Source: a virus. Taken from it: DNA of 33,217 nt. The notes beneath the pieces were generated by a model. It made no database searches. It was not told where the DNA came from and worked only from the letters and a program-made list of their open reading frames with translations. The DNA lies in IMG/VR virus record IMGVR_UViG_3300002835_012794, positions 1 through 33,217 of that record; one strand, given 5' to 3'. Positions 7,540 through 26,996 of the stretch are shown one piece after another. Position numbers and translations under genes: made by a program. How positions within the stretch are numbered: the stretch's first letter is position 1; each line of letters begins with the position of its first letter.

Positions 7540-7548
7540 AGAATCCTA

Positions 7549-7788: not shown

Positions 7789-9237
7789 ATGAAAGATAAA
7801 TTTGGTTATTTGCCTCCTGAAAAGAGGAAGAAGATTATGCTTATCTGTGATGACATCAGAGTCCACTCAGGTATTGCAACTGTCGCTAGAGAAATTGTGT
7901 TACACACAGCACAACATTTTAATTGGGTAAATATTGCTGGAGCAGTGACCCATCCTGAAAAAGGTAGAAAATTAGATCTTTCTGAAGATACTAATAAAAA
8001 TTCAGGGCTTACAGATTCATCTGTATCAATGTATCCAGTTGATGGTTATGGAGATCCAACACTTGTTAGACAATTAATTCAGATTGAAAAACCTGATGCT
8101 ATTATGTTGATCACAGATCCACGCTATTTTGTTTTCTTATTTGCTATTGAAAATGAAATTAGAAAACAAATTCCTATTACTTACTTAAACATTTGGGATG
8201 ACTATCCAGCACCATTATATAATAAACCATATTATGAGGCTTGTGATTTGTTGATGGGTATTTCAAAACAAACAGTAAATATTAATAGAATTGTATTGGG
8301 AGATGTAGCTAAAAATAGAATTTTAAAATACATTCCTCATGGATTAAATGATAAAATATTTAAATCTATTAAAGAAACAGATAAAGAATATGCTGATGTA
8401 GTTTCATTAAAAAAACAATTATTTGGTAAGTCACAACCTGAATTTATTGTTTTCTTTAATTCAAGAAACATTCGCCGTAAACAAATTCCAGACGCATTAA
8501 TGGCTTTTAGACTATTCTTAGATAAATTACCTAAAGAAAAAGCTAAAAAATGTAAAATGTTACTTCATACTGAGCAAGTAAGTGAGCATGGTACTGATTT
8601 GCCTGCTGTTATTGATTTGTTTTTTGAAGATGAATATAAAAACAATGTAGTCTTTACTAACATGAGAGCTAGTGCCTATGAAATGAGTTTATTATATAAT
8701 ATGTCTGATGTTCAAATTCTATTAACATCAAATGAAGGATGGGGATTAAGTTTAACTGAAGCTATGTTATGTGGTTTACCTATTATTGCCAATGTAACAG
8801 GAGGTATGCAAGACCAAATGCGTTTTGAATTTGAAGATGGAACTTGGATTGATTTTGATGAAAATTTTCCTTCAAACCATAGAGGCACTTATAAAAAACA
8901 TGGTGAATGGGCATTTCCCGTATATCCAACCTCACGTTCAATTGTAGGTTCTCCTCCAACACCTTATATTTTTGATGATAGATGTGAAGCGGAAGATGCT
9001 ACAGAACGTATTCTTGAAGTTTATAATATGAGTAAAGAAGATCGTAAAGCAAAAGGTTTAAAAGGTAGAGAATGGGCTGTAAGTGATGAAGCCGGGTTTA
9101 CATCTGAACATCAAGCTAAACGTGTTATTGAAGCATTTGATGAATTATTTAATACATGGACTCCTAGAGAAAAATTTGAATTTATTAAAGCTACTGACTA
9201 TCCTAAAAGAACATTAAAACATAAATTAATCTATTAA
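7789..9237 (+). CDS. GT-B glycosyltransferase (GT4-like)
   Basis: A 482-residue glycosyltransferase. The N-terminal Rossmann half begins IMLICDDIRVHSGIATVAREI, a typical GT4 opening with a Gly-rich acceptor loop. The C-terminal donor domain has TSNEGWGLSLTEAM, an E-x7-E motif with Glu316 and Glu324, followed by CGLPIIANVTGG. It would transfer a sugar from a nucleotide donor with retention of configuration; donor and acceptor are unknown. It is the first gene of island block A and its TAATG stop/start joins it to the second GT-B gene. No membrane segment is visible, so it acts in the cytoplasm. Confidence 0.9.
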   Translation: MKDKFGYLPPEKRKKIMLICDDIRVHSGIATVAREIVLHTAQHFNWVNIAGAVTHPEKGRKLDLSEDTNKNSGLTDSSVSMYPVDGYGDPTLVRQLIQIEKPDAIMLITDPRYFVFLFAIENEIRKQIPITYLNIWDDYPAPLYNKPYYEACDLLMGISKQTVNINRIVLGDVAKNRILKYIPHGLNDKIFKSIKETDKEYADVVSLKKQLFGKSQPEFIVFFNSRNIRRKQIPDALMAFRLFLDKLPKEKAKKCKMLLHTEQVSEHGTDLPAVIDLFFEDEYKNNVVFTNMRASAYEMSLLYNMSDVQILLTSNEGWGLSLTEAMLCGLPIIANVTGGMQDQMRFEFEDGTWIDFDENFPSNHRGTYKKHGEWAFPVYPTSRSIVGSPPTPYIFDDRCEAEDATERILEVYNMSKEDRKAKGLKGREWAVSDEAGFTSEHQAKRVIEAFDELFNTWTPREKFEFIKATDYPKRTLKHKLIY

Positions 9238-10568
9238 TGAAACCGTTATTTATAATTAGTTGCCCTATTGACACTTACAGTGGTTATGGAGCTCGCTCTC
9301 GAGATTTAGTCAAGTCAATTATTGAACTTGATAGGTATGATGTAAAAGTTATGTCCCAACGTTGGGGAGAAACACCTTGGGGATTTATCAATGATAATCC
9401 TGAATGGAAATTTCTTGAAAAACATATTTTAACATCTCCACAATTACCTAAACAACCTGAAATTTGGGCTCAAGTAACTGTGCCTAATGAATTTCAACCT
9501 ATTGGAAAATATAATATTGGTTTTACAGCTGGTATTGAAACAACTATTGCTATTCCTGAATGGATTGAAGGATGTAATAGGATGGATTTAAATATTGTTT
9601 CTTCTAAACATTCTTTAGATGTATTTAAAAACAGCCAATTTGAAAAAGTAAATGAACAAACAAAACAAAAAGATGGTGTTTTAAAATTAGAAAAACCTAT
9701 GGAAGTGTTGTTTGAAGGAGCTGACCTAAATAAGTATTTTGAAATAGCTGATGAAAACCTTCCAGACACTGATCTCATAACAACATTAGATAATATGCCT
9801 GAATCATTTGCTTATTTGTTTGTTGGTCATTGGATGCAAGGAGATATAAGTGAAGATAGAAAAAATGTTGGGTTGTTGATTAAAGCGTTTTTTGAAATAT
9901 TTAAAAACAAACCTAAAAAACCAGCATTAATTTTAAAAACTTCAGGTGCTGGCTCATCTTATTTAGATAGAGAAATGATTCTACATAAAATAAGACAAAT
10001 CCAAGATTCAGTTGAACATATAAATTTACCTAATGTTTATTTACTTCATGGTGAGTTTACAGATGAAGAAATGAATCATTTATATAATCATCCTAAAGTA
10101 AAAGCAATGATTAATTTGACTAAAGGTGAAGGATTTGGTAGACCATTACTTGAGTTTAGTTTAACTAAAAAACCAATTATTGTTTCAAATTGGTCAGGAC
10201 ATATGGATTTTCTAAATTCAGAATTTGTTGTAGCTTTAGATGGTAAATTAACTAATGTACATCCAAGTGCAGTTAATCAGTTCTTAATTCAAGATAGCCA
10301 ATGGTTTTCACCTGATCATAATCAAATAGGTACTTATATAAAAGAAGTATATGAAAATTATAAAAAATATACTGATGGTGCTAAACGTCAAGCATATAGA
10401 AGTAAGTCTATGTTTAACTTTGATGAAATGAAAAAATTAATAGGTAATTATCTTGAACAATATATTCCTGAATTTCCTAAACAGGTTCAAATAAAATTAC
10501 CATCAGTAAACAAAATAAATTTACCTAAAAAACCTGAATTAAAAAATGGACAATTTAGTAATTTGTGA
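9237..10568 (+). CDS. GT-B glycosyltransferase (GT4-like)
   Basis: A 443-residue glycosyltransferase. The N-terminus (FIISCPIDTYSGYGARSRDL) has the acceptor-side loop of GT4 enzymes; the donor side has KGEGFGRPLLEFSL, an E-x7-E motif with Glu298 and Glu306, and then KKPIIVSNWSGHMDFL. It is clearly different from the upstream GT-B, so the pair probably adds two different sugars or uses two acceptors. Start and upstream stop overlap in TAATG; its 3' end overlaps the zinc-ribbon gene by 23 bases. Confidence 0.9.
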   Translation: MKPLFIISCPIDTYSGYGARSRDLVKSIIELDRYDVKVMSQRWGETPWGFINDNPEWKFLEKHILTSPQLPKQPEIWAQVTVPNEFQPIGKYNIGFTAGIETTIAIPEWIEGCNRMDLNIVSSKHSLDVFKNSQFEKVNEQTKQKDGVLKLEKPMEVLFEGADLNKYFEIADENLPDTDLITTLDNMPESFAYLFVGHWMQGDISEDRKNVGLLIKAFFEIFKNKPKKPALILKTSGAGSSYLDREMILHKIRQIQDSVEHINLPNVYLLHGEFTDEEMNHLYNHPKVKAMINLTKGEGFGRPLLEFSLTKKPIIVSNWSGHMDFLNSEFVVALDGKLTNVHPSAVNQFLIQDSQWFSPDHNQIGTYIKEVYENYKKYTDGAKRQAYRSKSMFNFDEMKKLIGNYLEQYIPEFPKQVQIKLPSVNKINLPKKPELKNGQFSNL

Positions 10569-11013
10569 TCGTTGTGGGTCTGATGCTTGTTATGTTGATG
10601 AAGTAAATCAAGACATCAAAACTTATTTTTGTTATGGATGTGGTTTTCAAACTAATTCATTAATGAAAGAAGGTGAGAAATTTTATGAAGAGCAAATTTC
10701 AGTTCTTCCTGAATTGTATAAAGATTTAATGGTAAAAGATGATAATGGAAAAGTTTGGATGCCCTCATCAATAAACTTACCTTACCAAGGAATGATTTTT
10801 GCAAACGGCCCCTCTCCAGATAATTGGGAATGGGGGGCTGTTAAAGCAGTTCCAGTATTAGAAGAAGAAAAAACCAAATACCCTATTCCCGGAAAAACAG
10901 GACAATATTATGATTGGAGAATGGATATGTCTACAATAAAAAATTATCCTGAACGTGATTTTATAGAGGCATTAACGTATATTGGTGTTTTACCTGAAGA
11001 TAAAAATGATTAA
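10546..11013 (+). CDS. Zinc-ribbon protein of unknown function
   Basis: A 155-residue protein with an N-terminal zinc ribbon: Cys7 and Cys10 (CDRC), then Cys29 and Cys32 (CYGC). The rest has several Trp and Pro residues and no known domain. The knuckle spacing is that of a four-cysteine ribbon used for nucleic-acid or protein binding. It lies between glycosyltransferase genes and overlaps both neighbours, so a role in the glycan pathway is possible. A GC-rich inverted repeat lies in its middle (10804-10842). Confidence 0.75.
   Translation: MDNLVICDRCGSDACYVDEVNQDIKTYFCYGCGFQTNSLMKEGEKFYEEQISVLPELYKDLMVKDDNGKVWMPSSINLPYQGMIFANGPSPDNWEWGAVKAVPVLEEEKTKYPIPGKTGQYYDWRMDMSTIKNYPERDFIEALTYIGVLPEDKND
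10804..10842 (+). other. GC-rich inverted repeat inside the zinc-ribbon gene
   Basis: AACGGCCCCTC (10804-10814) can pair with GGGGGGCTGTT (10832-10842): 11 base pairs including two G-U pairs, with a 17-base loop. Runs of G and C like these are rare in this AT-rich sequence. It may slow ribosomes or shape the mRNA; it may also be chance. Confidence 0.3.
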
Positions 11014-11614
11014 TATAGCAATCACCGTTTGTAATGAACACCAGGAGTTAGAGATGTTACTTGATTATCTTCAAGAACGTGCTCTATCTCCTGGGTATGA
11101 GGTCGTAGTACAAATTGACCAAAATAACCATACTAAAGAAGTAGTAAGTGTTATTTTAGATAGAGGAATAAAACATTGGTTTTATCCTTTAGATAAAGAT
11201 TTCGCTTCATATAAAAATGAATTAGCAAACCATTGTTCTGGAGAATATATCTTCCAAATCGATGCTGATGAAATACCAGCATTAGAATTACTTAATATGC
11301 TTCCAAGTATATTAGAAAGTAATCCTGAAGTGGATGTATACTTAGTTCCTCGGATTAATACTGTAAGTGGTCTCACCGAGGAACATATCCAGAAATGGAG
11401 ATGGAATGTTGAAGATGATAGAATTAATTTTCCTGATTACCAATGGAGAATTTATCGTAATGATAAATCAATTAAATGGATAAATAAAGTTCATGAACGC
11501 TTAGATGGATTTAAACAATATGCTGCTTTACCTCCTGAAGATGAATTTTGTTTATTACATCCAAAAACAATAGAAAAACAAGAAAAACAAAATAATTTTT
11601 ACAATACGTTATGA
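11006..11614 (+). CDS. GT-A glycosyltransferase (family 2, WaaE-like)
   Basis: A 202-residue family 2 transferase. It opens with INIAITVCNE, has the metal-binding DxD motif as QIDADEIP (Asp86 and Asp88), and then YQWRIYRND followed by INKVHERL, a pattern seen in WaaE/KdtX-type core transferases. The enzyme would be inverting and metal-dependent. I chose ATG 11006, which overlaps the upstream stop, over an in-frame TTG at 10982, because INIAITV is the expected first beta strand. It is short for the family but contains the complete catalytic part. Confidence 0.85.
   Translation: MINIAITVCNEHQELEMLLDYLQERALSPGYEVVVQIDQNNHTKEVVSVILDRGIKHWFYPLDKDFASYKNELANHCSGEYIFQIDADEIPALELLNMLPSILESNPEVDVYLVPRINTVSGLTEEHIQKWRWNVEDDRINFPDYQWRIYRNDKSIKWINKVHERLDGFKQYAALPPEDEFCLLHPKTIEKQEKQNNFYNTL
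11345..11384 (+). other. Inverted repeat inside the GT2 gene
   Basis: GTTCCTCGG (11345-11353) and CCGAGGAAC (11376-11384) are perfect 9-base inverted copies with a 22-base loop. Six of the nine pairs are G-C, which is unusual for the local composition. Function unknown; chance cannot be excluded. Confidence 0.25.
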
Positions 11615-12753
11615 AAAAAATATGGTATGCTCCTAATCAATTTGAATCTTATGGAGAAGAAGAGATTCAAGCTGTTGTTGAATGTTTAAGATCAGGATGG
11701 TTAGCTGGTTTTGGTCCTAAATCAATTGAATTTGAAGAAAAAATAGCAAAACACTTCGGTAAAAAATATGGTGTGTTTGTAAATTCAGGCTCTTCAGCTT
11801 GTTTACTAGCATTAGCGTGTTTAAAATTTCCAAAAGGTACTAAAATTATTACTCCCGCATGTACATTCTCAACAACACTAGCCCCAATTATCCAATTAGG
11901 ATTAGTTCCAGTATTTGTAGATGTAGATTTAAATACTTATGTAGTTAATGTTGAAGAAGTATTAGCCGCTGTTACTGATGATGTAAAAGCACTTATGATT
12001 CCTAATCTAATTGGTAATAAACCAGATTGGAAAGCAATTAAAGAAGGTTTAATTAATATGGGTCGTGAAGATATTATTATTATTGAAGACTCAGCTGATA
12101 CTGTGACTAATACTCCTGAAACAGATATCGCAACTACTAGTTTTTATGCCTCACATGTTATTACAGCTGGTGGAGCAGGTGGAATGGTAATGGTAAATGA
12201 TATTAAATTAAGAGATATTATTCTACAATTCAGAGATTGGGGTCGTATGGGAGACAATTCAGAAATTATGGCTGACCGCTTTAATCATGTTGTTGATGGT
12301 ATTCCTTATGATCATAAGTTTTTATATGATGTTTTAGGTTATAACTTTAAATCATCAGAAATGAATGCTGCTTTTGGTTTAGTTCAATTAGAACGCTTTA
12401 AACAATTTGAAGGTATTAGAAGAGCAAATATTGAAAGATATTTAGAAAATCTTAAAGATGTAGAAGAAATTATATTACCTAATGATTCTATTAAACCTAA
12501 TTGGTTAGCAATTCCTTTACAGACAGAAAAACGTTATGAGTTGCTTAATTTCTTAGAAGACAATAATGTGCAGACCCGTGTTACATTCGCTGGTAATGTT
12601 ACTCGCCATCCAGTATACAGAGAGTACCTACAAGAATTCAAACACTCCGATATTATTATGAAAAATGGATTCTTGTTAGGTGCCCATCATGGAATGACTA
12701 TTGAGGATGTAGATTATGTTTGTGATAAAATTAAAGAATTTTTTACAAAATGA
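11611..12753 (+). CDS. PLP-dependent sugar 3-dehydratase-like protein (DegT fold, RfbH/E1-like, His in place of Lys)
   Basis: A 380-residue protein of the DegT/DnrJ/EryC1/StrS fold. Cofactor-site features include NSGSSA (58-63) and IIEDSADT with Asp160. The lysine that binds PLP in aminotransferases is replaced by His182 in SFYASHVITAGGAGG. The CDP-sugar 3-dehydratase E1 (RfbH/DdhC) and ColD have the same change and use it for dehydration. FRDWGR (207-212) and GYNFKSSEMNAAFGL.QLERF also match RfbH. The cysteines that hold the 2Fe-2S cluster of E1, just after FRDWGR, are missing, and the protein is shorter than E1 (437). It may therefore act in a cluster-free, ColD-like way. Its neighbour is a nucleotide-sugar 4,6-dehydratase, the expected preceding step. 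Confidence 0.85.
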   Translation: MKKIWYAPNQFESYGEEEIQAVVECLRSGWLAGFGPKSIEFEEKIAKHFGKKYGVFVNSGSSACLLALACLKFPKGTKIITPACTFSTTLAPIIQLGLVPVFVDVDLNTYVVNVEEVLAAVTDDVKALMIPNLIGNKPDWKAIKEGLINMGREDIIIIEDSADTVTNTPETDIATTSFYASHVITAGGAGGMVMVNDIKLRDIILQFRDWGRMGDNSEIMADRFNHVVDGIPYDHKFLYDVLGYNFKSSEMNAAFGLVQLERFKQFEGIRRANIERYLENLKDVEEIILPNDSIKPNWLAIPLQTEKRYELLNFLEDNNVQTRVTFAGNVTRHPVYREYLQEFKHSDIIMKNGFLLGAHHGMTIEDVDYVCDKIKEFFTK

Positions 12754-13703
12754 AAGTAGTTTATGTTACGGGTTGCTTAGGATTCATTGGATCCTATGTA
12801 ACCCGCAAATGTCTTGAAAAAGGATGGTATGTAAGAGGTATAGATAAAATTACATACGCGGCTAACATTGATTTGTTAGATGAATTTTTTAGTTATCAAA
12901 ATTTTATTTTTGAAGAGAAAGATATAAATGAGCTTGATTTTATATATGATTGTGATTATATAATTAATACAGCTGCTGAAACTCATGTTGGTAATAGTAT
13001 AGTCCAATCGGATGAATTTATACATTCTAACATAAATGGTGTTCATCATCTTTTAGAGTTAATTAAAAACTTTAGACAAGAAGGTAAAGACAAACCAGTA
13101 TTAATTCATTTTAGTACAGACGAGGTTTATGGTGATATTGAAAATGGTGCTCATAAAGAAACAGATTTATTAAAACCATCAAATCCATATTCAGCTACTA
13201 AGGCAGCAGCTGATCAATTGGTGTTGGCTTGGGCTCGTACTTATGATTTACCGTATGTTATTGTTAGACCAACTAACAATTATGGAATTGGTCAATATGT
13301 TGAAAAATTAATTCCAAAAACATTAAAATATTTAAAATTAGATCGTAAAATACCTTTACATAATAATGGTTCTCCTGTTCGTACTTGGTTACATGCTGAC
13401 GATACAGCAGAAGCTATTATGTCAATCATTGAATCAGGTAAAACAAATGAAATATACAACATTTCAGGTGGTTTTGAACAATCTAATTTAATGACTGTAT
13501 CTCAAATTATTAATCTATATTGTCCTGATACAACACAATCACTAGAAGATTATTGTAATTTTGAATTTAATAGAGATGGTCAAGATGTTAGATATTCTTT
13601 AGATGATTCTAAATTAAGAGCATTAGGTTGGAAACCTAAGCGTGTATTTCAAAATGAATTACCTTATATTGTAGAGTATTATAAAGATAAATTTATATGG
13701 TAA
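12750..13703 (+). CDS. NDP-sugar 4,6-dehydratase (RmlB-like SDR)
   Basis: A 317-residue extended SDR enzyme. Motifs in order: TGCLGFIGS NAD-binding loop (7-15), AAETHVGNSI (75-84; AAESHVDRSI in RmlB), FSTDEVYGD with catalytic Thr123, Asp124 and Glu125, YSATK with Tyr147 and Lys151, RPTNNYG, and VRTWLHADD. The D-E pair distinguishes 4,6-dehydratases from simple epimerases. The product would be an NDP-4-keto-6-deoxyhexose, the usual substrate of the dehydratase encoded just upstream. RmlB itself is about 350-360 residues, so this is compact. Which nucleotide (dTDP, CDP, GDP) is used cannot be told from the sequence alone. Confidence 0.92.
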   Translation: MKVVYVTGCLGFIGSYVTRKCLEKGWYVRGIDKITYAANIDLLDEFFSYQNFIFEEKDINELDFIYDCDYIINTAAETHVGNSIVQSDEFIHSNINGVHHLLELIKNFRQEGKDKPVLIHFSTDEVYGDIENGAHKETDLLKPSNPYSATKAAADQLVLAWARTYDLPYVIVRPTNNYGIGQYVEKLIPKTLKYLKLDRKIPLHNNGSPVRTWLHADDTAEAIMSIIESGKTNEIYNISGGFEQSNLMTVSQIINLYCPDTTQSLEDYCNFEFNRDGQDVRYSLDDSKLRALGWKPKRVFQNELPYIVEYYKDKFIW

Positions 13704-14188
13704 TATTAAAAAATGGAAGAGGTCAATTAGGAGATGAATTAATCAAAGCTAATCTCCAATGTAACCAAGATGTTTATATTTATCATACTTGGGAAGTAAA
13801 TGATAAACACCCAAATGCTCAATATGAATCACTTAAGAGATTTAAATATTTTGTAGATGAACATAAGTCTAGTAGGATTATTTTCATATCTACAACCTCC
13901 GAAAATGAGACACAGTATGTTTTAACTAAACATACTGCTGAAGCTTACTTAATTAATACAACCTCTAATGGGTTTGTTTTAAGGGTACCTATGTTTATAG
14001 GACCAAGAGTTATATCTAATTTTAAAGATGATTCTAAAAAACCTTATGGTACTATGGAATTAATCCACACTAGAGATGTAGTTGAAAAAATAAAAGAGTT
14101 ACTTAATTATGATGGGGTAAAAAGATTTCATACATTACATGGTGAAAAAATATCAGCACAATTAATTTACGACTTAGTTAGAATATAA
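13697..14188 (+). CDS. Compact SDR-like (RmlD-like) protein
   Basis: A 163-residue protein with signs of a shrunken SDR: a glycine loop NGRGQLGDEL at the start (compare GQVG/GQLG of RmlD reductases), FISTTS in place of the STDYVF strand, YVLTK as the Tyr-x3-Lys pair, and VLRVPMFIGPR. It is about half the length of RmlD, and the segment between the first and fourth strands is strongly shortened. It may still be a small NAD(P)-dependent reductase or epimerase, or it may have lost catalysis. It overlaps the 4,6-dehydratase by 7 bases, which supports a role in the next reduction step. Confidence 0.6.
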   Translation: MVILKNGRGQLGDELIKANLQCNQDVYIYHTWEVNDKHPNAQYESLKRFKYFVDEHKSSRIIFISTTSENETQYVLTKHTAEAYLINTTSNGFVLRVPMFIGPRVISNFKDDSKKPYGTMELIHTRDVVEKIKELLNYDGVKRFHTLHGEKISAQLIYDLVRI

Positions 14189-15105
14189 TGGTTACAAAAA
14201 TCACTTACCACATGATGCCTTGGGAGATTGACTATGCATTAATGTCATTTACCCAATTTAAAAAATCTAAATATTATTTAGACCCCAATGATAGAGTTAA
14301 AATAGATACGTTTCTTAACTTATCTAATTACATAATTGATTGGGATAATAGCAAATTACCAAAAGAGTTCTTTATTCAAAAATATAAGGACTTACAAAAT
14401 TTACTTTGTGATTATGAACATACATCTTTTATTTATGAAGGTGATGAGTGTTGGGGTATCTTAGATAAGCAAAGAATGGCTTATGATAAAGAAGTAGATT
14501 ATTATATGGAACTATGCCCTGATATGTACTTCCAGGAAACATTAATAGCATCTTTAATTGAGGCCGCTAAATCAGTTCCTAATAAATATTTTGTTATCAC
14601 ACCCCAACTATATAAAATGTGGGATCATACCTGGGATGTGTTAGTTGATAATCAATATTTAGCAATACCTTATGACCAATGGGATAAAGCTGATCTATTT
14701 GATATTAGATGGGATTTAAAATCTCAACAGCCTGATATGTCTTTAAGACCAATTAATGTTAGTAAATGGGCTAATTGGTTTGACTTATATAATAAAGCAT
14801 TTTATGAAGAAATGGTTCCAGTTCATGATGATTGGCATGGTTATGGTCCAGGTGATACTTACGGTATGATAGTTTCAGAGTATGCTAAATCAAAAGGAGT
14901 TGATTTTCAACAGTATGTTTTAGAAGGACAAACAATATTTGAATACCCAATTGGACCTTTAAAACAAAGAAATTTTACAAGTGCTTATAGAGATCTAATT
15001 GTTACTCGAGATGTGCCTAATCAAAGACAAGTGTTTGAAGCTAAATTTAATGAGTATGTAAACAAAGGTGTTCAAATGTTGATTGATAAAAAAATTATAT
15101 GTTAA
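14188..15105 (+). CDS. Unknown protein in the glycan cluster, possible glycosyltransferase
   Basis: A 305-residue protein that I do not recognise. It begins VTKITYHMMPWEIDYALMSF and contains a possible short acidic motif (CPDMYFQETLIASLIEAA) and many aromatic residues (WANWFDLY, HDDWHGYGPGD). No membrane segment or signal peptide is visible. Its place between sugar-modifying and fucosyltransferase-like genes, with a TAATG junction upstream and a 7-base overlap downstream, suggests a transferase of a diverged GT-A type, but no accepted motif proves it. Confidence 0.6.
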   Translation: MVTKITYHMMPWEIDYALMSFTQFKKSKYYLDPNDRVKIDTFLNLSNYIIDWDNSKLPKEFFIQKYKDLQNLLCDYEHTSFIYEGDECWGILDKQRMAYDKEVDYYMELCPDMYFQETLIASLIEAAKSVPNKYFVITPQLYKMWDHTWDVLVDNQYLAIPYDQWDKADLFDIRWDLKSQQPDMSLRPINVSKWANWFDLYNKAFYEEMVPVHDDWHGYGPGDTYGMIVSEYAKSKGVDFQQYVLEGQTIFEYPIGPLKQRNFTSAYRDLIVTRDVPNQRQVFEAKFNEYVNKGVQMLIDKKIIC

Positions 15106-15959: not shown

Positions 15960-15968
15960 GGAATAATT

Positions 15969-15980: not shown

Positions 15981-16003
15981 CAAATAATTAGTTTTAATAG
16001 AAT

Positions 16004-16942: not shown

Positions 16943-16954
16943 TATAAAAAAATA

Positions 16955-19166: not shown

Positions 19167-20697
19167 TTTAGACGTATTATTTATTAGCCCCGGTAACGCT
19201 TCAGAAATTTACCAAGACTTAGCTAAAGATTATGCTTCAATAGAGACTCCAACATGGGCTTTATTGTTAGCAGAATCTTGTAGATCAATTGGTCATAAAG
19301 TAGCTATTTTAGACATTAATGCTGAACGTATTAAAAACAGTGAATCAATTGAACGTATTAAAGCCTACAATCCAAAATTTATTTGTTTTGTTGTTTATGG
19401 ACAGAATGTAAATGCGGGTACAGTTAGTATGAGTGGAGCTGTTAAACTCTCTACTGATATTAAAGAAGCAGGAATTAGTACTCCAATTGGTTTTATTGGT
19501 TCATATGTTCAAGCATTACCTAAAAAGACATTAATTGATGAACCATCAATTGATATTGTGTTTATGAATGAGGGTGTATATTCATTAAGAAATGTATTAT
19601 CGCAAGATATTATTGATCTTAATAATCTCGATCATATAAACGGTATAGCATGGCGTAAAAATGGTGAAATTACATTTAATGCTCCTGAAAAAGTAGTACC
19701 AACTGAAAGAATGGATATTGACTTACCAGGTTACGCTTGGGATTTATTACCATTTAAAGAACGACCATTAGATTTATATAGAGCTCCTATGTGGCATGCC
19801 GAATATGATCTTGAAAAACGTTCTCCATATGCCGCGCTACAAACTTCATTAGGTTGTCAGTTTGGTTGTACATTCTGTATGATTAATATCTTGAATAGAG
19901 ATGACAATGATGAAATTGGAGTAGCAGGTAACTACAGTAAGATGAGATTTTGGTCACCTGAATTCATTATCAAAGAATTTGATAAGTTAGTTGAAATGGG
20001 GGTTGAGACAATTCGTATTGTAGATGAAATGTTCTTATTAAATAAAAAATATTATGTTCCACTTTGTCAAATGTTAAAAGATAGAGGGTATGGTGATAAA
20101 GTAAGAATGTGGGCTTATTCAAGAGTAGATACAGTTACTGATCCTGATCGTTTGAAACTAGTACGTGAGGCTGGTATTAAGTGGTTATGTTTAGGTATTG
20201 AAAGTGCTGATAGAAATGTACGTTTGGAAGTATCTAAAGGTAAATTCCAAGATGTTGATATTAGTAAAGTAATTAAACAAGTACATGATGCTGGTATTGA
20301 AGTAATGGCTAATTATATTGTAGGCCTACCAGGAGATACTATGGAAACAATGCAGAAAACACTTGACTTGTCTTTAGAATTAAATACAGCAGGTTGGAAC
20401 ACATACGCAGCAATGGCACTTCCAGGTAGTCAATTATATAAAACAGCATTAATTAATGGTTATGAATTACCAACTACATATACTGGTTATTCATTCCATG
20501 CTTATGATACTGTACCAATGCCTACTGATACTTTGACTCCGGCTCAAATTTTGAAATTTAGAGATGAAGCATTTGGTATTTACCATAATGACCCTAAATT
20601 TTTAGCTCGTATTGAAAGATTATTTGGTAAACCAGCAGCTGATAATATTCAAGAAATGACTAAAGTAAAATTGAAACGTAAAATTTTAGGAGATTAA
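19159..20697 (+). CDS. Radical SAM protein with N-terminal B12-binding-like domain
   Basis: A 512-residue protein in two parts. Residues 1-150 look like a cobalamin-binding Rossmann domain (VLFISPG, then IGFIGSYVQALPKKTL, matching GG.H.TALP..TL of B12-radical SAM proteins), although the classical DxHxxG is absent. Residues 225-430 are the radical SAM barrel with CQFGCTFC (Cys233, Cys237, Cys240; CxxxCxxC), RIVDEMF, and GIESADRNV. Such enzymes often methylate unreactive carbons or rearrange sugars. In this cluster a C-methylation or deoxygenation of a sugar is a plausible job. It needs reduced electrons and forms 5'-deoxyadenosine (or SAH), which the downstream genes could supply and remove. 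Confidence 0.88.
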   Translation: MHNLDVLFISPGNASEIYQDLAKDYASIETPTWALLLAESCRSIGHKVAILDINAERIKNSESIERIKAYNPKFICFVVYGQNVNAGTVSMSGAVKLSTDIKEAGISTPIGFIGSYVQALPKKTLIDEPSIDIVFMNEGVYSLRNVLSQDIIDLNNLDHINGIAWRKNGEITFNAPEKVVPTERMDIDLPGYAWDLLPFKERPLDLYRAPMWHAEYDLEKRSPYAALQTSLGCQFGCTFCMINILNRDDNDEIGVAGNYSKMRFWSPEFIIKEFDKLVEMGVETIRIVDEMFLLNKKYYVPLCQMLKDRGYGDKVRMWAYSRVDTVTDPDRLKLVREAGIKWLCLGIESADRNVRLEVSKGKFQDVDISKVIKQVHDAGIEVMANYIVGLPGDTMETMQKTLDLSLELNTAGWNTYAAMALPGSQLYKTALINGYELPTTYTGYSFHAYDTVPMPTDTLTPAQILKFRDEAFGIYHNDPKFLARIERLFGKPAADNIQEMTKVKLKRKILGD

Positions 20698-20698
20698 T

Positions 20699-21445
20699 AT
20701 GGAACAACAAGCTGTAAAATTACAGGTAACTAGTGCTCCTATTAAAGGATTTATAGAATTAATAGAAAACTACAATAAAGAAAATTTAGTAGTTGCTGAA
20801 ATTGGAACTTATGTAGGGGCTACAACTGTTGTAGCCGCTACATTAGTCAAAAAATTAAAAGGAAAATACATAGCTATTGATTGGTTTAAAGGTAGTGAAG
20901 ATACATTTGGCCCTCATAAAACAAATACTTTAAAAGATCAATCAATAATAGATATTTTTAAAGATAATATTAAAAAAGCAGAAGTTGATGATATTGTTGA
21001 AGTATTTAATATGACTTCATTAGAAGCGGCTAAAGTTATTCCTGATAATTTTTTAGATATTTGTTTTATAGATGCTGACCACACATATGAAAATGTAAAA
21101 GCAGATATTTTAGCTTATTTACCCAAACTCAAACCAGGAGGAATAATTTGTGGTCATGATTTTGAAAAAATAGGAGCTTTTATATATAATGAAATAAATA
21201 AAGATGATTTAAAAGTAGATTACACTTTTAGATACTCAACTCAAGAAACAACAATAACAGAAAAATACAAAGAAACAGTTATTAATAATAAAGTAATTCA
21301 TGACACTATAAGCCTAACATGGTTCCATCCAGGAGTAATAAAAGCAGTGGGTGATTTGTTTGATTTTGATCATGTTTATCTTTATAGTGATAATGTTTGG
21401 GCTATAACTAACTTACAAAAAGCATTAAAAAAAGACAATGAGTAA
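20699..21445 (+). CDS. Class I SAM-dependent methyltransferase
   Basis: A 248-residue methyltransferase of the Methyltransf_24 type. Motif I is AEIGTYVGATTVV (34-46), the acidic residue after strand 2 is in YIAIDWF, and DICFIDADHTYENVK plus LKPGGIICGHDF form motifs IV and V, with a metal-site look (DADH). Enzymes of this type O-methylate sugars or small molecules. It begins one base after the radical SAM stop and overlaps the ColD-like gene by 8 bases. The target is probably a sugar hydroxyl, judged only by neighbours. A strong hairpin is encoded in the motif I region. Confidence 0.85.
   Translation: MEQQAVKLQVTSAPIKGFIELIENYNKENLVVAEIGTYVGATTVVAATLVKKLKGKYIAIDWFKGSEDTFGPHKTNTLKDQSIIDIFKDNIKKAEVDDIVEVFNMTSLEAAKVIPDNFLDICFIDADHTYENVKADILAYLPKLKPGGIICGHDFEKIGAFIYNEINKDDLKVDYTFRYSTQETTITEKYKETVINNKVIHDTISLTWFHPGVIKAVGDLFDFDHVYLYSDNVWAITNLQKALKKDNE
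20811..20843 (+). other. Long near-perfect hairpin in the methyltransferase gene
   Basis: Bases 20811-20825 and 20829-20843 form a 15-base inverted repeat with a single G-G mismatch and a 3-base CTG loop. This is the most stable stem I found inside a gene. It encodes the SAM-binding loop GATTVV, so some of the pairing is tied to protein sequence, but the codon choices (GGG, GCC) are rare here. Confidence 0.4.
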
Positions 21446-22613
21446 TTTTTATTTACCTTTAATGAGTGATAACATTGATAAGGAAGATGTTAACGCGTTG
21501 ATTGACTTCTTAAGTCAAGACCAAATTCCTAAACTAACTAATGGACCTAAAGTTATTGAGTTTGAAAACGCTTGGGGTGAATGGTTAGGCACTAAATATA
21601 ACCTTATGGTTAACTCAGGAGCATCAGCAAACGAATTAACTATGTTGGCCTTAAATTATATCCATGGTGAAGGTGAAATTATTGTTCCACCACTTACTTG
21701 GATTTCAGATATTTCATCTGTTATCTTTAGTGGAATGAAACCTGTATTTTGTGATATTAATTTAAAGAATTTTTCATTTGATATTGAAAAATTAAAACAA
21801 GTTATCACTCCAAATACAAGAGCAATATTCTTAACTCATGTACTTGGTGTTAATGGATTGACAGACGAATTAATTCAATTATGTAATGAAAATAACATTT
21901 TGTTAATTGAAGACGTTTGTGAATCTCATGGTACAACATTTAAAGGACAAAAAGTAGGTACTTATGGATTTGCTAGTAATTTTAGTTTCTATTTTGCTCA
22001 CCATATGTCTACTATTGAAGGTGGAATGATTTGTACTAATGATGAAAAATTTTATCAAGTATGTAGAGCATTACGTTCTCATGGTATGATGAGGGAAATG
22101 ACTAATAATGAAATGAAACAAGAAATCATTGATGCTAACCCTGATTTGAATCCTGACTTTATTTTTATTCGTCCCGCTCATAACTTCAGAAGTACTGAAT
22201 TAAATGCGGTTATTGGTTTGTCTCAAATTAAAAAATTAGATTCAAATAATTTGCATCGTGTTGATAATTTTAAGTACTTTATGGAACGTTTAGATTCAAC
22301 TAAATATCATACTGATATTGAAATGGATGGACAATGTAATTATGCTTTCATAGTTGTATTAAAAGATGGTGATTTTGAATTTAGAAATAAAGTAGAATCA
22401 ACATTACGTGAAAACGGAATTGAATTTAGACGTGGCCTATCAGGTGGAGGTAATCAATTAAGACAGCCTTGGTTTAAAAAACACTATAATATTGATCATT
22501 CTCAATTCCCAAATATGGATCATGTTCATCATTTTGGTTGGTATGTTGGAAACTATCCTTCATTAGAACGAGAAAAAATTGATACTTTAATTACTGTATT
22601 AAATGGACTTTAA
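21438..22613 (+). CDS. PLP-dependent sugar 3-dehydratase, ColD-like (DegT fold, His in place of Lys)
   Basis: A 391-residue protein of the DegT fold with near-identical length to ColD (388). NSGASANEL (59-67) contacts PLP phosphate, and LLIEDVCESHG holds the PLP-nitrogen aspartate (Asp159). The active-site segment is SFYFAHHMSTIEGG; His188 sits where aminotransferases have Lys, the same residue number as the known catalytic His188 of ColD (GDP-4-keto-6-deoxymannose 3-dehydratase). The expected reaction is removal of the C3 hydroxyl from a 4-keto-6-deoxy sugar using PMP. It overlaps the methyltransferase by 8 bases and APRT by 11. A second, different His-type enzyme lies at 11611. Confidence 0.9.
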   Translation: MSNFYLPLMSDNIDKEDVNALIDFLSQDQIPKLTNGPKVIEFENAWGEWLGTKYNLMVNSGASANELTMLALNYIHGEGEIIVPPLTWISDISSVIFSGMKPVFCDINLKNFSFDIEKLKQVITPNTRAIFLTHVLGVNGLTDELIQLCNENNILLIEDVCESHGTTFKGQKVGTYGFASNFSFYFAHHMSTIEGGMICTNDEKFYQVCRALRSHGMMREMTNNEMKQEIIDANPDLNPDFIFIRPAHNFRSTELNAVIGLSQIKKLDSNNLHRVDNFKYFMERLDSTKYHTDIEMDGQCNYAFIVVLKDGDFEFRNKVESTLRENGIEFRRGLSGGGNQLRQPWFKKHYNIDHSQFPNMDHVHHFGWYVGNYPSLEREKIDTLITVLNGL

Positions 22614-23082
22614 AAAATACATTACAGAGACCCCTGATTTTCCAAAACCAGGGGTTTCTTTTAAAGACATTTCTCCCTTATTGAAATCAACTTGGTTACC
22701 TTATGCTATCCATAATATGAAAGGACTAGTTAAACATCCTGATTATTGGGTAGGGATTGATTCAAGAGGATTTATATTCGCTTCAGCAATTGCTGCTTCT
22801 AATGGTGGAGGATTTATAATGTGTAGAAAAAAAGGCAAATTACCCCCTCCAGTAGTAAGTCAAACATATTCTCTAGAATATGGAGAAGATACTTTGGAAA
22901 TGCAACCTGGAACAGGTAAAGTAGTAATTGTAGATGATGTATATGCTACTGGTGGTACAATGAATGCTGTAGAACAGCTGTGTATTAAAGCAGGTTATGA
23001 AGTAATTGATAAATTAGTATTAATTGATTTGAAATACCTTCATGAATCTAATAATGTTAAAAGTCTAATTCAATATGAGTAA
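22603..23082 (+). CDS. apt: Adenine phosphoribosyltransferase (APRT)
   Basis: A 159-residue APRT, somewhat shorter than E. coli Apt (183). It converts adenine and PRPP to AMP. Motifs: PDFPKPGVSFKDISPLL (11-27), a signature of APRT; GIDSRGFIF (51-59); RKKGKLP (75-81); and the PRPP loop VVIVDDVYATGGTM (107-120). The C-terminus is short but all catalytic loops are present. The nucleosidase encoded next releases adenine, so the two form a salvage pair. It overlaps the ColD-like gene by 11 bases and the nucleosidase by 8. A terminator-like hairpin lies within its first codons. Confidence 0.93.
   Translation: MDFKKYITETPDFPKPGVSFKDISPLLKSTWLPYAIHNMKGLVKHPDYWVGIDSRGFIFASAIAASNGGGFIMCRKKGKLPPPVVSQTYSLEYGEDTLEMQPGTGKVVIVDDVYATGGTMNAVEQLCIKAGYEVIDKLVLIDLKYLHESNNVKSLIQYE
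22630..22662 (+). other. Terminator-like hairpin at the start of the APRT gene
   Basis: ACCCCTG (22630-22636) and CAGGGGT (22649-22655) pair perfectly, with possible further TTTT/AAAA pairing in the loop, and are followed by TTCTTTT. This looks like a weak intrinsic terminator but lies in codons 10-20 of APRT, within its conserved PDFPKPG block. Confidence 0.35.
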
Positions 23083-23626
23083 AAAAGTAATTATTGTTGC
23101 TTCACCTTTAGAAACAGGTTTAGCAAATGATGTAAATGGATACCCTATAATTTATAGTGGTGTTGGTAAAATTAATGCTACAATAGCTGCTTATAAAGCA
23201 TTTACTGAAGGGTATGATGAAATAATTAATATTGGATCATGCGGTTCATTAAAACTTGAACGTGGGGATATAATTAATGTTGGATTAGTTTATCAAGATA
23301 TTGATGCTACTCCATTAAGTAATTATGGTCATACACCTTTTGAATCAAATTCTTATCAAATTATTGCAAACCGTCTTTCTGATTTAACTTGTTTTACCAC
23401 AGATTATTTCGTAGATTTACAACAATTAGAAAAATATTCACCATCTTATATTAGTATGATACATAGGTGTGACTGTTTTGATATGGAGTGTTTTGCTATT
23501 GCTAAAGTAGCTAAACGTTTTAATATCAAATTCAAAGCATACAAATGGGTTTCAGACAATGGAGGTGATGTGAGTTGGGAAGAAAATTGTAAAATTGGTT
23601 TTGATAAAGTAAAAGAATTAATATGA
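23075..23626 (+). CDS. MTA/SAH nucleosidase-like purine nucleoside hydrolase
   Basis: A 183-residue member of the PNP/UDP nucleosidase family, shorter than E. coli MtnN (232). Visible: SGVGKINA (28-35), NIGSCGSL (52-59), the ribose-binding DMECFAIA (Asp136-Met137-Glu138), and WVSDNGG with the catalytic Asp161. These fit MTA/SAH nucleosidase, which cleaves S-adenosylhomocysteine, methylthioadenosine and 5'-deoxyadenosine to adenine. These are by-products of the methyltransferases and radical SAM protein nearby. The preceding gene recycles the adenine. Another specificity within the family cannot be excluded because the middle part is shortened. Confidence 0.85.
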   Translation: MSKKVIIVASPLETGLANDVNGYPIIYSGVGKINATIAAYKAFTEGYDEIINIGSCGSLKLERGDIINVGLVYQDIDATPLSNYGHTPFESNSYQIIANRLSDLTCFTTDYFVDLQQLEKYSPSYISMIHRCDCFDMECFAIAKVAKRFNIKFKAYKWVSDNGGDVSWEENCKIGFDKVKELI

Positions 23627-23811
23627 AATATACTGAACTGTTTAAATATAAACATAAAGTACACGGGTGGATAGCTCGTAGTAATGGAAGAATGGGTAGT
23701 GATGTATTTGAATATTTTAATACAGTTGCTAATTTATATGAATTTACTAAGGAAGAAATATTAGCCCATAGTCAAGATTGGATTCAGTTAAAGTATAATG
23801 ATCAAGAATAA
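23623..23811 (+). CDS. Small hypothetical protein
   Basis: A 62-residue basic and aromatic protein (KYTELFKYKHKVHGWIARSNGRMG at the start, written here only as its opening pattern of Lys, Tyr and His). It overlaps the nucleosidase in ATGA and the flavoprotein start in TAATG, so it is translated with the SAM-salvage genes. No domain recognised. Confidence 0.6.
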   Translation: MKYTELFKYKHKVHGWIARSNGRMGSDVFEYFNTVANLYEFTKEEILAHSQDWIQLKYNDQE

Positions 23812-24545
23812 TGCCAACCGCTAAGTTATATCATATTTTAGACGAAACACCTACAACTAAACGTTTCTTTTTTGAAGCTATTGATTTGGAAAAATTAAAT
23901 TTTATTCCTGGTCAATTTATTTCATTTGAATTTCCTATACATGAAAAACCATCAAAACGAGTAAGACATTTTTCAATTGCTAGTTGCCCAAATGATAATA
24001 ATTTATTTGAAGTAGTAATTGTTAAAAAAGAAGGTGGGGCAGGTACTGAATGGTTATGGAAACAAGAAATTGGAGTTGAAATACCATTTACAGGACCATC
24101 AGGTATTATGGTTATGGATGAAAATAAAGTAAAAAACCACATATTTATTTGTACTGGTACTGGGGTAGGACCATTTAGAAGTATGCTTTGGGACATTCAT
24201 AACAACAACATTCCTACAGGTGATTTAATTATGGTGTTTGGTACTCGTGATAAACAAAGTATGCTTTATGTTGATGATATGTTGAAATTGGAAGAAAGTT
24301 TACCTCAAATGAAATATTTACCTATTTTATCTCGTGAAGAAATAAATGGTAAACAAGGATATGTTCATAAAGTATACACTGAAGTAGTAAATGATTATTT
24401 TAAACAAATGGAAGAAGGTAAATACAATGATTTAGATTGTGTGTTCTACATTTGTGGATGGAAGGATATGGTTAAGGAAGCTAGAGCCAATTTAATGGCT
24501 ATGGGTTTTGATAAAAAACAAATTAAACAAGAAATTTATGAGTAA
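23811..24545 (+). CDS. Ferredoxin/flavodoxin-NAD(P) reductase-like flavoprotein
   Basis: A 244-residue FNR-fold protein. FAD-binding is shown by RHFSIAS (52-58; the RxYS-type motif), NAD(P)-binding by CTGTGVGPFRSML (114-126), and the C-terminal YICGWKDMV carries the Cys-Gly found in this family. The length matches E. coli Fpr (248). It has no 2Fe-2S ferredoxin domain, unlike the E3 reductase that partners E1 dehydratase. Two roles are possible: donating electrons through a flavodoxin or ferredoxin to the radical SAM enzyme, or reduction in 3-deoxysugar synthesis. No ferredoxin gene lies in the window, so the carrier would be a host or distant phage protein. Confidence 0.87.
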   Translation: MPTAKLYHILDETPTTKRFFFEAIDLEKLNFIPGQFISFEFPIHEKPSKRVRHFSIASCPNDNNLFEVVIVKKEGGAGTEWLWKQEIGVEIPFTGPSGIMVMDENKVKNHIFICTGTGVGPFRSMLWDIHNNNIPTGDLIMVFGTRDKQSMLYVDDMLKLEESLPQMKYLPILSREEINGKQGYVHKVYTEVVNDYFKQMEEGKYNDLDCVFYICGWKDMVKEARANLMAMGFDKKQIKQEIYE

Positions 24546-25320
24546 TCTCAAAAAAGAAGAATTTAAACAATTTAACGTTTTAGTTATAGGAGATACTTGC
24601 CTCGATGAATTTGTATATGGTTCAGCATTCAGATTAGCTCCTGAAGCGCCGGTTCCTGTTTTTAATCCTGTTTATAAGGAAACAAATAACGGAATGGCAG
24701 GTAATGTAGTTGCTAATTTGCAAGCATTAGATATTAATACTATTTTTATTAGTAATAATGAAAATGTAGTAAAAACCAGATATGTTGATGATAGATCAGG
24801 CCAAATATTACTTCGTGTAGATAAAAACGATAAAGTTAACAGAATATCAGAACAAATACTTAAAGGAATTAAAGAAAATGAGTATATGTTTCTAAAAATA
24901 GATGCTATTATTATAAGTGATTATGATAAAGGATTTTTAGATGAAGAAGATATTCAATGGATTTGTAAACATAATAAAAATGTATTTATTGATACTAAAA
25001 AAATATTAGATGAGTGGTGTGTTGACGCTTCATTTATTAAAATTAATCATGTTGAATATGAACGCACAGAATATACTTTAAATCATTTAAATATTGAAGA
25101 TAAATTAGTAGTTACTTTATCTAATAAAGGATGTCAATATAAAGGTAAATTATTTCCTGTTGATAAAGTACAAATTAAAGATGTTTCAGGAGCAGGAGAC
25201 ACATTCCTATCAGGATTAGTAGCAGAATATATTTTAACTAAAGAAATAGAAAAAGCAATTTTGTTCGCACAACAATGTGCGACAGTAGTAGTACAAAAAC
25301 AAGGAGTAGCAACAATATGA
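24538..25320 (+). CDS. PfkB-family kinase, HldE kinase-domain-like
   Basis: A 260-residue sugar kinase of the ribokinase/PfkB fold. RLAPEAPVPVF (32-42) is a hallmark of HldE/RfaE heptose-7-phosphate kinase (RISPEAPVPVV), followed by GMAGNVVANL, the DYDKG segment, and the catalytic GAGDTFLSG with Asp221. The C-terminal nucleotidylyltransferase domain of HldE is missing and the protein is also shorter than the HldE kinase half (about 318). It probably phosphorylates a sugar phosphate, giving a 1,7-bisphosphate if it is a true heptose kinase. I chose ATG 24538, which overlaps the flavoprotein end by 8 bases, over an in-frame TTG at 24508. Confidence 0.85.
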   Translation: MSNLKKEEFKQFNVLVIGDTCLDEFVYGSAFRLAPEAPVPVFNPVYKETNNGMAGNVVANLQALDINTIFISNNENVVKTRYVDDRSGQILLRVDKNDKVNRISEQILKGIKENEYMFLKIDAIIISDYDKGFLDEEDIQWICKHNKNVFIDTKKILDEWCVDASFIKINHVEYERTEYTLNHLNIEDKLVVTLSNKGCQYKGKLFPVDKVQIKDVSGAGDTFLSGLVAEYILTKEIEKAILFAQQCATVVVQKQGVATI

Positions 25321-26996
25321 TAACACATAAAATAGAATCAATCGGTGAAGTATCATTTCATGAGGATTTTAATCCTGATACATTCAAATTTAGACATGAA
25401 AAATTTTCAGAAATTATACCTGAGGGTTCAGTAGCTTTAGATATTGGAGCCCATGTAGGTACGTTTGGTTTAGTATTTGCTAGTTGTGTTGGTAAAGAAG
25501 GTAAAGTAATTGCTTTTGAACCTAATCCAAAAACATATAATGTTATGTTAGAAAATATTAAAAACAATCCTAATTTTAATATTGACGCTCATAATTTAGC
25601 ATGTACTAGTGAAACCAAAAAATATACTTTTAATTATTCAGACCCAACCATTTATAATAATGGAATGAATGGAGGTTATTTTGATGAATTAAAACATGGT
25701 AATCAAATAAAACAATTCCACTCATATAAGGTTGAAGTTGATGGTGTTAATACAACTGATTTTTTAAATGAAAAATATGGAGAGTTAGTTGATAAAATTA
25801 AATTTATTAAAACAGATACTGAAGGATTAGATAAAGAAGTACTTAAAACATTAGCCCCTATTATTAAAGCAAACAAACCAGTATTAATGGTAGAAGCGTT
25901 TGTTAGTTTAACTGATGAGGAAGTAGAAGATTATTATAATGTTTTAAAATCATTTGATTATGAAATTTATGATGTATCACCTTTAGATAATAAAACAGAT
26001 TGTACAGGCCCCTTAACTAAAGAAGAATTTGGTCATTACATTCATAAAGTAGTTGATAATGGTAATTTCTTTTGTTTCCATAAAGATGAAGTACATAAGT
26101 ATAATTTACCAGTTACAGTACCTGGTAAAACAGCTGTAGTTATTTTTGGTAGAAATGATGGATATAAAGAAAAAGAACGATTTGCTATCCATTTAACTAC
26201 AATGTTGGAGACATTTGATGAAGTAATTTATGTTGACTGGAATTCACCAAACCATAGTTTCTTATATGAAGTTATGGATATGATTCCTCATACTGGTAGA
26301 TTAAAACATTATGCTATTCCTCCTGAGTATGCTACTATGATGGCTATGAATGATGAAAGAGCACAAGTATGTAATACTGTATTAGCGTTTAATTTAGGTA
26401 TGAGACGTACTGATGCTGAATGGATTATATTAGCTACTACTGATATTATTCCTCCTACTAAAGAAGCATTAAATGAGTTTATATCTAAATCAAATAAAAA
26501 TGCAATGTATACATTTAGTAGACGAGACATTGAGTATGATGATGTAATTGCTAATTTAGATAATTTAGATGAATACAGAAAACATTTAGACCAAACTACT
26601 GAACCTCGTATATTCCCAGCTCAAGTAACTCCTAATGATCGCTGGAGTATATTTAACTGTTGTGGGGATTTTCAATTAGCAACTAAAAATCTTTGGTATA
26701 AAATTAGAGGATATGAGGAACCAATGTTGTATGCTTGTTTTGTAGACACTAATGCTCAGAAGAAAGCTACATTATATGGGTTTGAATTAATTCCTATTTA
26801 TGATGTTCCTTTATATCATATGTCTCATAAAGGTATGTCTAATGATGGTTCATCACCTTCAAAACAATTTTATAATGATGCTTGGGATTGGGTAGAAACA
26901 TTTGATAAGTATTTAGATCATGACCATATAATGTATTCACGTAATGCTGATACTTGGGGATTTTCAAATATTGAAATTGAACATGAAACTATTTAA
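25317..26996 (+). CDS. FkbM methyltransferase fused to a GT-A-like glycosyltransferase
   Basis: A 559-residue two-domain protein. Residues about 1-257 are an FkbM-type SAM methyltransferase: VALDIGAHVGTFGL (39-52), VIAFEPNP (64-71), and FIKTDTEGLDKEVL (163-176). Residues about 268-545 look like a GT-A glycosyltransferase: AVVIFGRNDGY, FDEVIYVDWNSP, and CCGDFQLATKNLW..IRGYEE, like the acceptor region of galactosyltransferase C-terminal domains. Such a fusion would O-methylate and extend a glycan. The start at 25317 gives an ATGA overlap with the kinase; an upstream in-frame ATG (25275) lies deep in the kinase gene and is less likely. It closes the island. Confidence 0.82.
   Translation: MITHKIESIGEVSFHEDFNPDTFKFRHEKFSEIIPEGSVALDIGAHVGTFGLVFASCVGKEGKVIAFEPNPKTYNVMLENIKNNPNFNIDAHNLACTSETKKYTFNYSDPTIYNNGMNGGYFDELKHGNQIKQFHSYKVEVDGVNTTDFLNEKYGELVDKIKFIKTDTEGLDKEVLKTLAPIIKANKPVLMVEAFVSLTDEEVEDYYNVLKSFDYEIYDVSPLDNKTDCTGPLTKEEFGHYIHKVVDNGNFFCFHKDEVHKYNLPVTVPGKTAVVIFGRNDGYKEKERFAIHLTTMLETFDEVIYVDWNSPNHSFLYEVMDMIPHTGRLKHYAIPPEYATMMAMNDERAQVCNTVLAFNLGMRRTDAEWIILATTDIIPPTKEALNEFISKSNKNAMYTFSRRDIEYDDVIANLDNLDEYRKHLDQTTEPRIFPAQVTPNDRWSIFNCCGDFQLATKNLWYKIRGYEEPMLYACFVDTNAQKKATLYGFELIPIYDVPLYHMSHKGMSNDGSSPSKQFYNDAWDWVETFDKYLDHDHIMYSRNADTWGFSNIEIEHETI

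Follow-up and report, generated by a model that had tools for sequence, protein, structure and literature searches.

The 33,217-base IMG/VR virus record IMGVR_UViG_3300002835_012794, analysed here as a whole and called the window, carries an island of 22 consecutive + strand open reading frames (ORFs) from position 7789 to 26996, in line with the roughly 22 same-strand sugar genes counted in an earlier sequence-only reading. Most of these ORFs overlap or lie a few bases apart, and nearly all are sugar- or cofactor-related. Comparison with related phages, in which the slot, its front genes, its variable cargo and enzyme families with intact motifs can be read directly, indicates that the island fills a fixed, exchangeable glycan-cassette site of a T4-like lineage that probably infects aquatic Bacteroidota. 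We hypothesize, with a probability of roughly 0.55, that the cargo turns a nucleotide sugar supplied by the host into a rare sugar and that the glycan is built on a phage protein, most likely one of the virion.

The flanks and the front genes of the slot are as follows.
2..7776, + strand: left flank, with the end of a family B DNA polymerase, a clamp-like gene, groES/groEL, a clamp-loader-like ATPase, a PD-(D/E)XK exonuclease and g7582
7789..9237, + strand: GT4a, a glycosyltransferase (GT) and the constant first gene (Pfam Glycos_transf_1, 5.5e-12)
9237..10568, + strand: GT4b, the constant second gene (phrog_2170 glycosyltransferase, 3.5e-25)
10546..11013, + strand: zinc-ribbon protein with invariant Cys, nearly constant
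10982..11614, + strand: GT2, nearly constant (Pfam Glycos_transf_2, 5.5e-7)
27163..28477, + strand: right flank, with g27163, g27547 and an HNH endonuclease

The slot is bordered on the left by the exonuclease and the small gene g7582, which marks the edge, and on the right by the HNH endonuclease. Clamp-loader contigs gave 433 relatives, of which 80 were taken in. GT4a is the next matched gene after g7582 in 91 of 91 loci, and GT4a-GT4b opens the slot in all 31 loci that show both flanks (some of these loci share a contig). The first four genes are nearly constant and the remainder is variable, with a flank-to-flank length of 5.4-20.9 kb and flanks that can be 92-100% identical although the cargo has been replaced. 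A search for the same gene order, which the sequence-only reading had proposed, found the slot in dozens of related contigs, a recurrence that is more than chance. Glycan genes occupy the slot of every relative read, including the cultured Flavobacterium phage vB_FspM_immuto. The claim that such an island is unusual therefore holds among phages generally and fails within this lineage, where a glycan island at the slot is the rule.

The polymerase end in the left flank is gp43-like and the T4 Gp23 capsid family is found in 8 of 12 related records, which together give a T4-like phage backbone. Among the window genes identified there is no integrase. A search of 50,697 phage records with the first 12 kb of the window found no near-identical DNA, and the window has no Rfam matches and no tRNAs. 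We considered an integrated bacterial O-antigen locus lying beside a phage fragment and rejected it, as phage genes stand on both sides and the slot recurs among relatives. Among cultured phages, immuto is the nearest that has the slot, and its GT4a and zinc-ribbon proteins are 56% and 44% identical to those of the window; a Bacteroidota host, aquatic and of the Flavobacterium type, is therefore likely. The replication genes differ between the two, with a family B polymerase at window positions 2-886 and family A in immuto (L140:1899-4232), both adjoining the same groES/groEL genes. Near the immuto polymerase lies a gene annotated as QueF/GTP-cyclohydrolase (L140:96-1016), a hint of deazaguanine chemistry.

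The identity of the proposed sugar depends on a core module in the later part of the island, which includes a short-chain dehydrogenase/reductase (SDR), thiamine diphosphate (ThDP), pyridoxal phosphate (PLP) and radical S-adenosylmethionine (SAM) enzymes.
16004..16942, + strand: SDR2, GDP-heptose C4-dehydrogenase-like (PDB 6vo6, 6e-103; next match 7e-17)
16955..17728, + strand: N half of a transketolase, ThDP-binding (Pfam, 3.7e-20)
17725..18666, + strand: C half of the transketolase (Pfam Transket_pyr, 1.4e-22; GISEQ glutamate intact)
18663..19166, + strand: RmlC-type epimerase (dTDP_sugar_isom; 8dak at 4e-48, against 7e-26 for the best ordinary RmlC, 1dzr)
19159..20697, + strand: B12-binding and Radical_SAM protein with invariant C233/C237/C240
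20699..21445, + strand: methyltransferase (Methyltransf_24, 2.5e-21)
21438..22613, + strand: DegTb, ColD-like C3-dehydratase (PDB ColD, 5e-53; His188 conserved)
22603..23082, + strand: adenine phosphoribosyltransferase (APRT)-like protein, for adenine salvage (Pribosyltran, 1.3e-11)
23075..23626, + strand: methylthioadenosine/S-adenosylhomocysteine nucleosidase (MTAN)-like protein (PNP_UDP_1, 2.6e-12)
23623..23811, + strand: small ORF from the ORF listing, with no PHROG match
23811..24545, + strand: FAD/NAD reductase, FNR-like (NAD_binding_1, 5e-17; FAD_binding_6, 8e-9)
24508..25320, + strand: HldK, PfkB-type heptose-phosphate-kinase-like protein, rfaE domain I (TIGR02198 at 133 bits, below the cut-off of 345; PDB 4e84, 5e-14)

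The single strong match of SDR2 is to 6vo6, which we take to be Campylobacter Cj1427, a GDP-heptose C4-dehydrogenase; by homology, SDR2 is its counterpart. It is 48% identical to a copy in a Bradyrhizobium GDP-heptose locus, and DegTb, which by homology is a PLP C3-dehydratase using His, is 53% identical to the Bradyrhizobium copy. The RmlC-type protein is nearest to Campylobacter GDP-4-keto-heptose epimerases. In vitro, the Campylobacter C4-dehydrogenase and a PLP C3-dehydratase yield GDP-3-deoxy-4-keto-heptose (PMC10680097), and the route to GDP-3,6-dideoxyheptose in the same organism also uses a PLP C3-dehydratase (PMC10440746).

The second component is the ThDP enzyme. ThDP enzymes branch 4-keto, 3-deoxy sugars at C4 (PMC12247030), and three kinds, all known or proposed to do so, stand beside DegT genes in the slots: a split transketolase, a split E1-like enzyme and an acetolactate-synthase/YerE-like enzyme. 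ThDP genes are present in 19 of 30 slots with DegT and in 4 of 30 without (Fisher p=1.4e-4). DegT proteins of the His type make up 115 of the 125 distinct proteins collected, a set drawn in part by radical-SAM and ThDP searches. In the window the transketolase C half, whose nearest solved relative is the split transketolase 6yaj, and DegTb are 2.8 kb apart, with the epimerase, radical-SAM and methyltransferase genes between them.

The third component is the radical-SAM protein, which has no relatives at E 1e-5 in the 50,697 phage records. Its nearest solved relative is AprD4 (6fd2, 1e-13), and it scores as AprD4-, HpnJ-, BchE- and PhpK-like, a profile compatible with either methyl transfer or dehydration. 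The APRT-like and MTAN-like genes, which go beyond the gene list of the sequence-only reading, travel with this module, albeit in few independent loci: MTAN is found in 4 of 4 loci with the radical-SAM gene and in 1 of 56 without. In the sole exception (L155), which belongs to the same contig as L035, a radical-SAM gene is present but falls just beyond the stretch.

Bacterial counterparts provide the context for this combination. The radical-SAM alignment, run once against GTDB genomes, picked out 80 loci, and in most of these a His-type DegT and split ThDP genes are found within a few genes of the radical-SAM gene. HddA-like genes occur in 52 of them, SDR2-like in 47, HddC-like in 39 and GmhA-like in 18; the NCBIfam labels of the bacterial proteins checked agree, nearly all at scores below curated cut-offs. 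Related gene sets are found in SAR11, Verrucomicrobiota and methanotrophs. In a tree of the radical-SAM protein, copies from phages and bacteria are intermixed (12 label changes, 8 of them forced), which points to several exchanges between phages and bacteria that could have run either way. A Bradyrhizobium locus (L374:9995-18855) carries in a row radical-SAM, HddA-like, GDP-fucose-synthase-like SDR, split transketolase, His-type DegT, HddC-like, GmhA-like and SDR2-like genes, and is apparently an undescribed GDP-heptose pathway.

HldK adds a further indication from within the phages. Among 137 phage loci, which overlap in part, HldK occurs alone in 67, HddA alone in 37 and both together in none, suggesting that one replaces the other. 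HldK also goes with RmlC (12/16 versus 3/44 loci), an association better supported than the pairing of radical-SAM and MTAN. The HddA-, HddC-, GmhA- and SDR2-like neighbours of the bacterial copies and the mutual exclusion of HldK and HddA together favour heptose over hexose as the substrate.

Several observations weigh against a heptose pathway. In DdahB, Ile56 and His123 are proposed to contact C7 (PMC7949155), and at these positions the window epimerase has Ser49 and Phe116, matching the hexose enzyme. The Ile/His pair is, however, also missing from the RmlC encoded in a SAR11 GDP-heptose locus (L323), which has the same Ser, and the pocket residues therefore do not decide between hexose and heptose. 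HldK is of the PfkB type that belongs to the ADP-heptose route, whereas HddA is usual for GDP-heptose. GmhA, HddA, GmhB and HddC are not in the window, and 12 related records contain no NTP_transferase or SIS_2 (GmhA) match. Finally, the co-occurrence counts come from 60 loci that were filtered for near-copies and are not fully independent, with shared descent left uncorrected. Because the activating genes are absent from both the window and the 12 related records, the host probably supplies the donor, and the window enzymes can probably only be the modifying part of a GDP-heptose pathway. The sequence-only reading had described a near-complete pathway with its own cofactor recycling, which is too strong: the activating steps are missing, and the MTAN-like and APRT-like genes track with the radical-SAM module in few independent loci.

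Hypothetically, assembly of the sugar would proceed as follows. SDR2 would oxidise C4 of GDP-heptose, DegTb would take off the 3-hydroxyl and the RmlC-type epimerase would reset C3 and/or C5. The split transketolase would then join a two-carbon unit to the C4 ketone, giving a branched sugar that the radical-SAM protein and the methyltransferases would alter further. The MTAN-like and APRT-like proteins would clear spent SAM products, HldK would make or recycle heptose phosphate, and the FNR-like protein is a possible electron donor.

The remaining genes of the island include a second sugar module and further glycosyltransferases.
11611..12753, + strand: DegTa, RfbH/ColD-like sugar 3-dehydratase (PDB 3bcx, 4e-64; His at the catalytic Lys position)
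12750..13703, + strand: RmlB-like NDP-glucose 4,6-dehydratase (TIGR01181 at 287 bits, below the cut-off of 365; TDEVYG and YSATK intact)
13697..14188, + strand: short SDR-like protein of the RmlB module (GRGQLG motif, no family match; by inspection)
14188..15105, + strand: GT-A-fold glycosyltransferase (AlphaFold pLDDT 94.5; top Foldseek PDB matches mostly glycosyltransferases, E ~1e-6)
15099..15959, + strand: GT10 (fucosyltransferase)-like protein (PDB 2nzw, 6e-7; EN...WYTEK motif)
25275..26996, + strand: FkbM methyltransferase (Methyltransf_21, 3.7e-13) fused to a probable GT-A domain in the C-terminal half, by inspection

RmlB and DegTa would make a second, hexose-derived deoxysugar, and the short SDR-like protein is possibly a reductase remnant. 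In both DegT proteins His replaces the aminotransferase Lys in alignments to RfbH, ColD and their His mutants in PDB, which bears out the prediction of two His-type PLP dehydratases. DegTa lacks cysteines aligned to what we take to be the Fe-S ligands of RfbH. An RfbH-type [2Fe-2S] dehydratase was accordingly rejected for DegTa and is unlikely for the ColD-like DegTb, so a role as RfbI-type partner does not account for the FNR-like gene. A pathway of the CDP-ascarylose/tyvelose type was considered because RfbH is nearest to DegTa, and was dropped as the leading interpretation once GDP-heptose genes were seen beside the bacterial module. The catalytic motifs that were checked are all intact (TDEVYG/YSATK, YAETK, GISEQ, CxxxCxxC, RGIHGD and GAGD), and the refuting condition set by the sequence-only reading, a loss of catalytic residues in most enzymes, accordingly fails.

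The island has two GT4 proteins, one GT2, one GT10-like and one GT-A by structure, which matches the at least five glycosyltransferases of the sequence-only reading, and a probable sixth domain in the C-terminal half of 25275-26996. Pfam and NCBIfam also agree with its 4,6-dehydratase, RmlC, SDR, split transketolase, heptose-kinase-like, B12 radical SAM and methyltransferase assignments, the third, short SDR being recognised by inspection only. The rare deoxy, branched or heptose-type sugar that it ascribed to the phage is enzymatically plausible.

The best-surviving alternative, though a doubtful one, is that the core substrate is a hexose of the GDP-mannose type or dTDP-glucose and the product a branched 3,6-dideoxyhexose like yersiniose, which would be compatible with any acceptor. 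ColD, the relative of DegTb, acts on GDP-4-keto-6-deoxymannose; an RmlB-like gene is present, the epimerase pocket is hexose-like, and YerE-like genes occur in sister slots. However, the one strong match of SDR2 is a heptose enzyme, heptose genes flank the bacterial copies, and HldK and HddA exclude each other. We therefore favour a heptose, and the predicted product is a C4-branched 3-deoxy-heptose plus a second deoxysugar, on a cytoplasmic acceptor that is most likely a virion protein.

As to that acceptor, the island has no nucleotidylyltransferase, polymerase or flippase, as the sequence-only reading had noted, and no Pfam match to Wzx/Wzy or ABC export genes. In a crude scan with 19-residue windows the hydropathy of its ORFs peaks at 1.62, and none of them is clearly a membrane protein. 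Without export or polymerisation genes or a clear membrane segment, a cytoplasmic acceptor is likely, on which the glycosyltransferases would assemble the glycan. We tentatively favour a virion protein by analogy with phage virion glycosylation and with cyanophage S-CAM7. The zinc-ribbon protein, which adjoins glycosyltransferases in nearly every slot, might be an adaptor for the acceptor; its model is confident, yet it has no PDB match at E<=0.001 and the fold search is uninformative.

It is rather unlikely that the glycan is instead placed on the host surface, on lipopolysaccharide (LPS) or capsule, blocking superinfection or changing phage receptors. The cargo enzymes do resemble O-antigen and capsule enzymes, and bacterial radical-SAM modules lie in apparent surface-polysaccharide loci. 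However, the island lacks a flippase, polymerase and ligase as well as any clear membrane protein, and the phage looks lytic (T4-like, no integrase identified), which would leave little time for surface remodelling.

Less probable still are sugars on phage DNA, as a hypermodification against restriction. Glycosylation of DNA by phage glycosyltransferase clusters has precedents (cited in PMC12619734), the slot adjoins replication genes, and other base chemistries are possible, as the QueF-annotated gene of immuto illustrates. However, genes of the thymidylate synthase family are present in 11 of the 12 related records, and the three proteins whose motif was read all show LPFNIAS. Its Asn is the residue expected of thymidylate synthase, where dCMP hydroxymethylase would have Asp, and no dCMP hydroxymethylase was found among the window genes identified or among these three proteins of relatives. 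Five or six glycosyltransferases, FkbM and the sulfation genes of a sister slot also fit a protein or surface glycan better, and DNA is weakly disfavoured as the acceptor. That the island is captured host sugar DNA without a current role, a filler of the kind raised for cyanophage LPS clusters (PMC3037559), is improbable given intact active-site motifs, front genes conserved across the lineage and modules that are kept together.

The cargo of sister slots is diverse. In one pair of loci (L017 and L071) the exonuclease, DegTb and MTAN are each 99% identical, GT2 is 70% and the radical-SAM protein 71% identical, and there is no DegTa, RmlB or transketolase. Another slot (L086:16555-18819) has, by inspection, sulfotransferase-, APS-kinase-, HAD- and small nucleotidyltransferase-like genes, probably for glycan sulfation, and a third has a UDP-galactopyranose-mutase-like gene (L145:6630-7727, also by inspection). 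At L172:4216-6003 a full-length acetolactate-synthase/YerE-like ThDP enzyme directly follows a His-type DegT; the two probably belong to a phage operon for a yersiniose-like branched sugar. A second HldK-like gene (~40% identical) lies outside the slot, right of HNH, at ~12.2-12.4 kb in L149, L146 and L170.

Among known systems, the immuto slot (NC_055915, 48.0-62.1 kb) has the same flanks, the same GT4a-GT4b-zinc-ribbon-GT2 front and variable sugar cargo. Unlike the window, its annotated cargo is of the aminosugar type (transaminases and a 'pilin glycosylation protein'), with no radical-SAM or transketolase annotated. The LPS/sugar clusters of T4-like cyanophages (P-SSM2, S-SSM7, S-CAM7) resemble the window in backbone, in size and in having relatives of the DegT dehydratases; their function has been left open, with 'stuffer DNA' as one suggestion (PMC3037559). 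The cluster of S-CAM7 (L399:12079-19442), with Gmd, Fcl, C3-dehydrase, GT11 and APS kinase adjoining a tail fibre gene, differs in looking GDP-colitose-like. The phage relatives listed for the transketolase halves are all <30% identical to those of the window. A large aquatic phage lineage, predicted to infect Bacteroidota, has four glycosyltransferases among its core genes (PMC12619734). That paper also cites virion proteins as carriers of phage glycans in mycobacteriophages, which are unrelated phages.

SDR2, DegTb and the RmlC-type protein have counterparts in the Campylobacter jejuni GDP-heptose modification pathway (Cj1427, C3-dehydratase, C3/C5 epimerases, C4-reductases), which as read has no ThDP or radical-SAM step, whereas the window has no GDP-heptose synthesis genes. 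Pathways to C4-branched sugars (yersiniose/YerE, the alpha-ketoacid-dehydrogenase type, and transketolase in miharamycin/amipurimycin) share the ThDP enzyme and deoxy-keto-sugar enzymes, to which the window adds heptose-type partners and the radical-SAM gene. A literature search on the enzyme combination, whose coverage largely excluded subscription journals, returned nothing relevant. Sugar clusters in T4-like phages are thus already known, while the pathway of the window, with its radical-SAM, split ThDP, His-type DegT and GDP-heptose-type enzymes, appears undescribed.

We tentatively extend this to a fuller picture, to which we give somewhat less than even odds: the phage completes an undescribed 3-deoxy-heptose (or 3,6-dideoxyhexose), ThDP-branched at C4 and altered by the radical-SAM protein, and displays it on its virions, while sister phages swap sulfated, amino or branched cassettes as bacteria swap O-antigens. 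If true, the slot would provide a testable case, in a lineage with a cultured member, for the old question of what role, if any, large sugar clusters play in T4-like phages and what they decorate. The enzyme set itself, which SAR11, Verrucomicrobiota and Bradyrhizobium also carry, appears to represent a sugar pathway of wide distribution.

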